Source: an uncultured Spirochaetia bacterium (GTDB taxonomy: Bacteria; Spirochaetota; Spirochaetia; JABEVK01). Taken from it: DNA of 38,743 nt. The notes beneath the pieces are model-generated. The model searched no databases, had not been told where the DNA came from, and saw only the letters and a program-made list of their open reading frames with translations. Every line of letters starts with the position of its first letter. The stretch's first letter is position 1. The position numbers and the translations under genes are program-made. The stretch is taken from contig CALGPJ010000065.1 in the NCBI GenBank assembly GCA_937960645.1, positions 1-38,743 on the forward strand, in the 5' to 3' direction. Positions 15,514 to 18,806 of the stretch are shown in pieces.

Positions 15514-15675
15514 TCAGTCGGCGATGGAAAAATCTTCTTTCGATGCTCCGCACATCGGGCACACCCAGCCATCGGGGAGGGCTTCGAACGAAGTCCCCGG
15601 TTCCACGCCGTTATCGGGATCTCCAAGCTCCGGATCGTAGATGTAGCCGCAGATATCGCAAACGTATTTCTTCAT
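15514..15675 (-). CDS. Rubredoxin
   Basis: A complete 53-residue rubredoxin, a small cytoplasmic electron carrier with one iron held by four cysteines. Ligands are C6 and C9 in [11 protein letters not shown] and C39 and C42 in [10 protein letters not shown]. The spacing, the aromatic core residues and DGWVCPMCG are standard. A GGAGG ribosome site lies 4 nt before the ATG, and promoter and terminator both flank it, so it can be expressed alone. Rubredoxins in anaerobes donate electrons to superoxide reductase, rubrerythrin or flavodiiron proteins; no partner is encoded in this window. Confidence 0.95.
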
Positions 15676-15694: not shown

Positions 15695-15723
15695 ACTATA
15701 ATATGGCCGGGGTTTTTTGTCCA
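15695..15723 (-). promoter_or_regulatory. Rubredoxin promoter
   Basis: On the minus strand TGGACA (complement of 15718-15723), a 17-nt spacer and TATAGT (complement of 15695-15700), each 5 of 6 to consensus. The -10 box overlaps the stop codon of the upstream TIGR02757 gene. Confidence 0.6.
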
Positions 15724-16463
15724 CGAGCTCGATGCATTCCCAGTTGCGCCAGGCTAAAATCGTATCGGCAGGGATCGTCGGGGACGAGTTCCCGAAAAAA
15801 GTCCGTCAGTTGCCGTGCTGCAGCCCGATCGGGTTGCCGCCGTGTTATCAGCCCCCGCTCCCGAGCCCAACGAAATAGATGCGTATCCAGGGGAATGGCC
15901 AGCTCGGCCGGGCGCAGCAGAGTCCAGCCACCGGGGTCGATGGCATCGGATCGAACCATCCAGCGCAAAAAGAGCATGGGCCGTTTGAGCGCAGAGGAGC
16001 TCAAAGCCCGGGGCAGGAGCATCCCGGGATCCGAGGGGCAGAAGGCGCGCAGGGACCTTAACCAGGAATCGACCTTTTGCCAGGTGTCCCCCTCGATGCC
16101 GAGTCCCTGCTCCAAACTCCCCCATGTCCGAAGAGCGCGTCCCAACCCCGCCAGGAAACTCGACAGCATCGACCGGTTGAAAAACCTGTAGTACCTCGGC
16201 CCCTCCTTCCCCCCATGGGCCAGGGGGCAGCCCTCCATCACGAAACGCGCTGGTCTTGGCCCCAATTCTCTGAGAATCGAGTCCAGGGTGGCTCGGATCG
16301 ATTCCACCCGCCCCAAAGCGTGGGCCATCACGACCATGCCCACGACCTCGCGATCCAGGGGATCCGGGTAACGGTGCAAAAAACCCACGGGGTCGCGATC
16401 GAGATACTCCGGACGATGGTACAGACTGTGAATCGCTTCCAGGCTCGATCTTTGCTTGTCTAT
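15696..16463 (-). CDS. TIGR02757 (DUF2400) family protein
   Basis: About 255 residues, a conserved family of unknown function common in spirochaetes and Bacteroidota. Landmarks are [36 protein letters not shown] and the C-terminal [14 protein letters not shown]. The N terminus is unusual: there is no ATG, GTG or TTG where homologues begin. A GGAGG ribosome site is followed by ATC and ATA codons (16466 and 16463), overlapping the stop of the upstream gene, so a non-standard start is suspected. The only upstream canonical start is a GTG at 16550, which would add 29 residues that look like an overlap shadow. It is last in an operon with the STAS and glucosaminidase genes. Confidence 0.8.
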
Positions 16464-17026
16464 GATCCTTCCTCCAGGGCCCTGGCATGACGATACAATC
16501 GGTACAACAAATCCAGGATTTTCCGATGGTACTCCACGTCGGAGGCCCACCGTCCGGAAAGCTCGTAAACGGTGAGGGCGCTTCCCGGCCGCACGTAGAT
16601 GCCCCGTTGATGGACCGGTGGATGGGCGTACTGTTCCCCCCCGGCGTAGCGTTTCAGGTGCTGGATCTGACCGCGAATCCCGGTCCTGACGTCGGGGAAA
16701 CTCAGACCGGCCTGCCCCCCATCCAGGGCACCCAAACCGGCAAAATTGTTTTGATGGGCCGCAACCTGGCCCCCAAAACGCAGGAAGGATGTCTCGAGGA
16801 GCATCTGTGCCCAGGCGATGTCGTGATTGACACCCTCCAGATCGGCTTCTTCCACGTAGATTTCCGCCAAACTCAGGGCCATGGATGGCTCGACTCCTGG
16901 GTTAACGCTGACCAAAAAGGAGGCCATTTCGTAGGGTGTAAACTCTCCCCTGGAAAGGATGAAGGGGTTAGGTTCCCAGTCCTGAGCGAGAACCCGGGCA
17001 ACCTCGAGCATGAAAACGAGTATCAC
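16460..17026 (-). CDS. Exported glucosaminidase-type peptidoglycan hydrolase
   Basis: A 188-residue protein with a short signal-peptide-like start (ILVFMLEVARVLAQ) and a glucosaminidase (FlgJ/LytG-like) domain. The domain core is AWAQMLLETSFLRFGG with the likely catalytic E78, followed by NNFAGLGALDGG and a region around FPDVRTGIRGQIQHLKRYA. Such enzymes cleave glycan strands in the periplasm, for growth or flagellar assembly. The GTG start overlaps the STAS stop as GTGA. An ATG at 17011 is a less likely alternative. Confidence 0.82.
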   Translation of the reverse strand: MILVFMLEVARVLAQDWEPNPFILSRGEFTPYEMASFLVSVNPGVEPSMALSLAEIYVEEADLEGVNHDIAWAQMLLETSFLRFGGQVAAHQNNFAGLGALDGGQAGLSFPDVRTGIRGQIQHLKRYAGGEQYAHPPVHQRGIYVRPGSALTVYELSGRWASDVEYHRKILDLLYRLYRHARALEEGS

Positions 17027-17409
17027 GTATGGATGGAACTCAGGTGCTCCAGCATTTGCTTCTCGCTTTTGAAGCAGGGGATGAACTCCTGCAGCTTCAC
17101 GAGCGAAAAAACTTCCATGATCTTGGAATTGACGTTCATGAAGATCATGTCCCCATTCTTGGAGCGGAGTAATTTGGCGAGGTTGATCAAAACCCCGATA
17201 CCCGTACTGTCGATGTATTTTAGCTCGGCCAGATCTACAGCCAATCTCCGCATGCCTCCAGCAAATAACGTGTTGGAAAGTGCGGTGAACTCTTCTACAA
17301 ATTCAACGACAAAATTGCCGTTCAGGTAGACCTTGTAAATGTAATCCGAGCTTTTGGTCTCTTTCTCATTGATCCCGAGAGGTCTTGCTATCTGGATACC
17401 AAACTGCAT
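17023..17409 (-). CDS. STAS-domain anti-sigma factor antagonist
   Basis: A 128-residue single-domain STAS protein of the anti-sigma-antagonist type. The phosphorylation site is S68 in KYIDSTGIGVLINLAKLL. In this family the unphosphorylated form binds an anti-sigma kinase and frees its partner; no kinase, phosphatase or sigma factor partner is adjacent. A GGGAG ribosome site precedes the ATG, with a good promoter at 17427-17454. It heads an operon with a glucosaminidase and a TIGR02757 protein, which may link it to envelope or flagellar control. Confidence 0.88.
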   Translation of the reverse strand: MQFGIQIARPLGINEKETKSSDYIYKVYLNGNFVVEFVEEFTALSNTLFAGGMRRLAVDLAELKYIDSTGIGVLINLAKLLRSKNGDMIFMNVNSKIMEVFSLVKLQEFIPCFKSEKQMLEHLSSIHT

Positions 17410-18231: not shown

Positions 18232-18806
18232 GTCTCTTTGGGAACACTGGCCCTGACCTCGTCCCAAAAGGTTTTTCGATCGATCTTCCCCTCCAGCAAA
18301 ACCACGATGAGCTTGCATACCCGCTCCGGGAGCTTGCTCCAGATGACCTTGGTCCAGTCACTGCCCAGGCTTTCTCGCAGCTCGGCCTCCTTGCGAACGG
18401 GCAGGCGGCCCTCCGCATAGGCCAGAAAATCCTCGGTCATGGCCAGTACCGCCCCTTGGGGGAGTGTGGGCCGGGGAGGCGCCTGCCTGGGAGCCCCCGG
18501 CGGCGGAGCCCAGGCATCCGTCAATTCCTGGATTTGATCCTCGCTCAGTTCCGGGGCCTTTTCGCGGATCATGTTTTTGATCAAATCGGTGACCATGTTG
18601 TGGATCCTTTGCTGGGTCAGCCCCTGCTGATCCTCGATCTGACGCGCCGCATTCCGCGCCATCTTGCCCAGGCTCCCGCCCACGGCACCCACCCGGTTGA
18701 GGTCACGTGCCCTTCTCTCGAGGGCTTGCTTGATAATCTCGATCTCCTCGAAGTCGGCATCGTTGAGGATGAGGCTCAAGACCCTTTCCAGCTCGGCTCG
18801 GGTCAA
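18228..18806 (-). CDS. Unrecognised helical protein downstream of YchF
   Basis: I do not recognise this 192-residue protein. It is mostly helical and charged, with no membrane segment or signal peptide. A proline-rich linker (WAPPPGAPRQAPPRPTLP) at about 99-116 separates an N-terminal helical half, with GAVGGSLGKMARNAARQIEDQQGLTQQ divided over residues 40-66, from a C-terminal helical half. It starts with TTG overlapping the previous stop (TTGA) and has an AGGAGGT ribosome site. It is co-transcribed with the TPR-like membrane protein and probably ychF. Confidence 0.72.
   Translation of the reverse strand: MTRAELERVLSLILNDADFEEIEIIKQALERRARDLNRVGAVGGSLGKMARNAARQIEDQQGLTQQRIHNMVTDLIKNMIREKAPELSEDQIQELTDAWAPPPGAPRQAPPRPTLPQGAVLAMTEDFLAYAEGRLPVRKEAELRESLGSDWTKVIWSKLPERVCKLIVVLLEGKIDRKTFWDEVRASVPKET

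Follow-up and report, generated by a model that had tools for sequence, protein, structure and literature searches.

The DUF2400 (TIGR02757) protein encoded in the window, the 38,743-nucleotide stretch of spirochaete DNA analyzed here, is probably made from a near-cognate start codon, either AUA (position 16463) or the AUC immediately 5' of it (16466), which would be selected by a GGAGG motif and probably aided by ribosomes that finish translation at the overlapping UAG of the preceding gene. The initial annotation had proposed that this gene has no canonical start and may begin at ATA or ATC, and its reading is supported by the start positions of homologues and by the absence of a matching N-terminal extension among them. 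We lean slightly to AUA over AUC because of the ATAG overlap that it forms with the upstream stop. The start region is laid out as follows.

Positions 15696 to 16463, minus strand: gene of the TIGR02757/DUF2400 family with profile matches; from ATA it has 255 codons, followed by TAG.
Positions 16461 to 16463, minus strand: candidate start codon ATA, 7 nt after GGAGG, in an ATAG overlap with the upstream TAG stop.
Positions 16464 to 16466, minus strand: candidate start codon ATC, 4 nt after GGAGG and immediately 5' of ATA.
Positions 16471 to 16475, minus strand: Shine-Dalgarno-like GGAGG, duplex of -9.3 kcal/mol with the assumed anti-Shine-Dalgarno sequence.
Positions 16486 to 16488, minus strand: ATG at a CATGCC element, in a different frame from the DUF2400 core; the element holds the DUF2400 start in relative G004 and reads TATGCC in relative G006.
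Positions 16548 to 16550, minus strand: GTG, the nearest in-frame canonical codon upstream, rejected as a start (no Shine-Dalgarno motif, and homologues speak against the extension).
Positions 16440 to 16442, minus strand: CTG, a near-cognate codon bordering the core and a weaker candidate, with a duplex of -2.2 kcal/mol.
Positions 16386 to 16388, minus strand: GTG in DPV, the first canonical codon downstream, within the conserved core.
Positions 16460 to 17026, minus strand: upstream glucosaminidase-domain gene (PF01832), with its TAG stop at 16462 to 16460 and a mechanically listed GTG start.

Inspection of the frame reproduced the details on which the initial annotation had built. Counting from the GTG at 16550, residue 29 is ATC (16466 to 16464), residue 30 is ATA (16463 to 16461), and residue 31 is GAC, in agreement with the I29-D31 at which the homologous region was said to begin. 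The spacing given for GGAGG (16475 to 16471), 4 nt to ATC and 7 nt to ATA, is likewise correct. As claimed, no ATG, GTG, or TTG occurs between the GTG at 16550 and the core; the next in-frame canonical codon is the GTG at 16388, codon 26 counting from ATA, which falls in the conserved DP motif region. The usual start range of the family is without a canonical codon here, and a strong Shine-Dalgarno motif lies at a working distance from the near-cognate candidates. Further, ATA shares bases with the glucosaminidase TAG (ATAG at 16463 to 16460), so that two co-directional genes would share stop and start bases if ATA is used.

The assignment of the protein to its family rests on profile matches to the whole protein, which scores 186.8 bits against Pfam DUF2400 (cut-off, 25) and, narrowly, 140.7 bits against NCBIfam TIGR02757 (cut-off, 139.2). 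It is the single match to the family in the genome, and the nearest homologue with an intact gene shares about 40% identity with it. The protein passes the profile cut-offs and keeps the near-invariant residues of the family, departing from it in the start region only. An AlphaFold2 model has an all-helical fold similar to that of HhH-GPD enzymes. VIA-align superposes the model on endonuclease III with a Z score of 12.7 over 194 residues (rmsd, 3.8), a score that unrelated helical folds can also reach; the best Foldseek match is to OGG1 at an E value of 0.15, and a profile search gives a weak endonuclease III match (E value, 0.26) that ranks below two designed proteins. An invariant Asp in the PLDTH stretch of DUF2400 appears to resemble the catalytic Asp of HhH-GPD DNA glycosylases. 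A DNA-glycosylase-like role is a reasonable guess from these comparisons. The model also resembles MutY, OGG, and the queuine salvage enzyme DUF2419 in fold.

We surveyed the start positions of homologues. DUF2400 matches occur in 159 of 297 genomes of the class, and the survey loci were taken from part of these: 136 loci were located, and removal of 7 duplicates left 129 unique loci, 16 of them from a related-locus search. Canonical codons were measured relative to the invariant DP motif. The nearest canonical codon of the homologues mostly lies 13 to 40 codons before this motif; in the window, ATA lies 23 codons before it, ATC 24 codons, and the GTG at 16550 52 codons. Homologue starts cluster at the position of ATC and ATA. 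The initial annotation had named homologues with a matching N-terminal extension as the finding that would speak against its reading. None was found among the 129 loci, and in 82 of them an in-frame stop excludes an extension of the length that GTG 16550 would give (the frame of one, L041, is broken).

This result bears directly on the GTG at 16550, which would add a 29-residue extension and overlap the glucosaminidase gene by 91 nt. It is the nearest in-frame canonical codon upstream, and a long overlap is in itself no objection, since the two genes overlap by 23, 77, and 95 nt in relatives G003, G006, and G004, respectively. However, in addition to the stops that exclude a comparable extension in homologues, this codon has no Shine-Dalgarno motif (-3.2 kcal/mol), and the extension is another frame of the conserved upstream gene. 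In a model of the long form read from GTG 16550 (mean pLDDT, 85.5), pLDDT stays below 50 for residues 1 to 23, and residue 26 opens the first helix. The disorder of the extension is weak evidence, because the other 17 rows of the AlphaFold2 alignment are cut near the core and do not cover it. Structural alignments point both ways: several HhH-GPD chains (1kg6, 1pu7, 3fhg, and 8dvp) start to align at model residues 29 to 32, the first aligned residue of each chain being among its residues 1 to 9, and other HhH-GPD chains, including the best (1p59, from model residue 15), align into the low-confidence stretch. Altogether, a start at GTG 16550 appears highly improbable.

To compare the candidate ribosome-binding sites, an anti-Shine-Dalgarno sequence was assumed, because no 16S rRNA match was found in the assembly (G000; 99% complete, 75 contigs). 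The -9.3 kcal/mol duplex of GGAGG stands against -3.2 kcal/mol at GTG 16550, -2.2 kcal/mol at CTG 16442, and +0.3 kcal/mol both at GTG 16388 and at the out-of-frame ATG at 16488. By chance, such a site is rare: among 2,556 stop-free stretches of 22 codons, taken out of frame inside long frames of the window and of 200 kb of contig C6, 20 (about 0.8%) hold ATA, ATC, ATT, or CTG with GGAGG 4 to 8 nt upstream. In 198 sampled long frames, the distance from GGAGG to ATG was 4 to 7 nt in 13 of 20 cases, making both ATC (4 nt) and ATA (7 nt) suitable; the distance does not separate the two codons. Only 97 of these 198 frames have a Shine-Dalgarno-like motif before a canonical codon, indicating that motif strength is no strict rule in this genome. 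RNA structure around the start site is nothing unusual (z, 0.20).

A start at CTG 16442 would also be in frame and near-cognate. The nearest canonical codon of some homologues is equally close to the core, and CTG is a candidate start in three other DUF2400 genes (described below). This codon nevertheless has no Shine-Dalgarno motif, and its use would leave the GGAGG-ATC-ATA site as a coincidence; we therefore give it very little weight compared with initiation at AUA or AUC.

The genes around DUF2400 keep their order in relatives, which allowed us to compare the junction across genomes. The additional features are as follows.

Positions 17023 to 17409, minus strand: STAS-domain gene, a conserved upstream neighbor kept in relatives.
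Positions 15514 to 15675, minus strand: rubredoxin gene, a conserved downstream neighbor kept in relatives.
Genome G001 (same genus), locus L140, about 1991 to 2350: DUF2400 remnant between the glucosaminidase and rubredoxin neighbors.

Family relatives G001, G003, and G006 share the order STAS, glucosaminidase, DUF2400, rubredoxin with the window, and G004 has the same order with a ferritin-like gene inserted before rubredoxin. The glucosaminidase is 68% identical between the window and G001. We compared the start region in these close relatives, as the initial annotation had suggested, and found an in-frame ATG in the relatives and a shifted register in the window. In all four relatives (G001, G003, G004, and G006, of which G001 holds a broken remnant), an in-frame DUF2400 ATG lies inside the 3' end of the glucosaminidase gene; in G004 and G006 it sits there in a C/T-ATGCC element. 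Measured from the glucosaminidase WA[ST]D motif, the DUF2400 core lies at a distance of 1 mod 3 in the four relatives and of 2 mod 3 in the window. In the window, the old ATG does not read into the DUF2400 core, presumably because an indel changed the register between the two genes. A lineage-specific indel at the junction would be the simplest cause of this difference; a repeat search found no local duplication that accounts for it. ATC precedes the core by the same number of codons as the ATG of G004. A conserved weak start was sought in the family relatives and was not found, as G003, G004, G006, and the G001 remnant all have the in-frame ATG.

These observations suggest how the start may have arisen. 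An indel in the gene overlap would have shifted the register so that the ATG of the relatives no longer leads into the DUF2400 core, and GGAGG with AUC or AUA at the new junction would have taken over as the start. The strong GGAGG would select AUA or AUC, ribosomes that had just terminated at the glucosaminidase UAG may reinitiate on DUF2400, and initiation at AUA or AUC would be expected to give a low yield. An ATAG overlap would suit the local style, because two genes of the cluster overlap their predecessors by four bases with non-ATG starts: the GTG of the glucosaminidase gene overlaps the TGA of the STAS gene as GTGA (17023 to 17026), and co-directional neighbors overlap as TTGA at 18803 to 18806 (mechanically listed starts in both cases). 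The case thus illustrates how a weak start is likely to evolve, with an indel in a gene overlap letting a new junction site take over. Gene callers in common use recognize no starts other than ATG, GTG, and TTG and would assign this kind of gene a false upstream start or a truncated protein.

Weak starts of this kind have precedents. In Staphylococcus aureus, one study describes AUA starts with extended Shine-Dalgarno motifs in infC, ccpN, and citZ and an AUU start of cvfC1; reporter assays put the weak starts of ccpN, citZ, and cvfC1 at about 10% of the AUG level in poor medium, and ccpN reached as much as 30% in rich medium (PMC13009471). The window start resembles these in combining AUA with a strong Shine-Dalgarno motif. 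The S. aureus starts were detected by ribosome profiling, and conservation is described for those of ccpN and cvfC1, whereas the window start is inferred, is unconserved, and overlaps an upstream stop. We claim no regulatory role of the ccpN or cvfC1 type for it, because the weak codon is unconserved in relatives. For comparison, CUG is given as 0.024% of bacterial starts, with a yield of 0.86% of that of AUG, in a second source (PMC11497404). A third describes reinitiation at overlapping stop and start codons as widespread (PMC6728339), and the window arrangement is similar in its shared bases and in having the Shine-Dalgarno motif inside the upstream gene; unlike the overlaps described there, ATAG joins a non-standard start to a TAG stop, and coupling is putative here. 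As AUA starts are already known elsewhere, the window gene would be another case of an uncommon but established mode of initiation. Among the listings of a literature search, no earlier report of this DUF2400/TIGR02757 start was found; the name TIGR02757 itself gave no match in the search.

The remnant in G001 raises the question of whether the window gene is itself newly dead, the register shift having removed its start and left a frame that yields no useful product and has not yet decayed. The remnant, found by tblastn (E value, 2e-5), contains stops and lacks about 400 nt, with 387 nt rather than 787 nt between the same neighbors, although it still has an in-frame ATG at its start. DUF2400 therefore appears dispensable in this genus, and loss of a start is the type of first lesion that would be expected. 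Against this, the window frame runs for 255 codons without a stop and keeps 25 of 25 near-invariant residues (columns at least 90% identical in the 128 other loci). Its mean identity to 125 other loci is 32.7%, compared with 32.2, 33.2, and 32.4% for family peers, and a GGAGG with a near-cognate codon at the right place would have to be a coincidence of about 1%. The intact residues and ordinary divergence argue against a long decay and would be compatible with a recent loss. The window protein is 32.8 to 39.2% identical to its family peers, which are 46.4 to 66.4% identical among themselves, a pattern expected of a deeper branch or of a lineage that evolves faster. On balance, we consider a dead gene unlikely and initiation at AUA or AUC the better account.

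A sequencing or assembly error that conceals a canonical start is less likely still. The assembly is a draft in 75 contigs, but reading on from the ATG at 16488 would require a frame-restoring indel. With an error upstream of the TAG, the glucosaminidase frame would continue, in the open frame of 244 residues that ATG 16488 begins, across most of DUF2400. Because an upstream indel would merge the two genes in this way, only an additional base in the roughly 20 nt that follow the TAG could be the error, and no run of identical bases there is longer than three. Consensus-level substitution errors are rare.

Outside the window, a few other DUF2400 genes are without a standard start. Seven of the 129 loci have no canonical codon 12 to 45 codons before the anchor; setting aside L041, whose record has a broken frame, and L131, whose ATG lies 48 codons upstream of the anchor, 5 loci including the window have no canonical start and no evident cause. 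L003 (minus strand) has a CTGA overlap with the upstream stop and a GGAGG; L028 (plus strand) has CTG directly after TGA and an AAGGAG; L110 (plus strand) has a CTGA overlap and no clear Shine-Dalgarno motif. L085 has no convincing near-cognate codon, and its record may be an error. As controls, we used coaD, rsmD, and nth genes of the same class (the 30 best-scoring loci per family rather than a random draw), of which 0 of 90 are without a canonical codon. The control criterion first flagged 53 of 90 because the model began too early, and 12 more codons were allowed after this result was seen, leaving search widths unequal at 46 codons for controls and 34 for DUF2400. The difference between 5 of 129 and 0 of 90 is not significant (one-sided chance, about 0.07, or about 0.12 for the 4 of 128 without the window, which prompted the survey).

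The CTGA overlaps of L003 and L110, the TGA-CTG of L028, and the ATAG of the window all lie at or next to an upstream stop. A speculative extension, which we think doubtful, is that loss of the standard start has recurred among DUF2400 genes, with translation then relying on near-cognate codons linked to the preceding gene's stop. If true, very weak starts may suffice for ribosomes that reinitiate, and many such genes may be concealed in gene overlaps. The infC gene of this genome starts with ATG, which does not support a genome-wide habit of weak starts. Among the 122 loci that have a canonical codon 12 to 45 codons before the anchor, only 28 have a Shine-Dalgarno-like motif before such a codon, and many DUF2400 starts seem to be poor in this motif.
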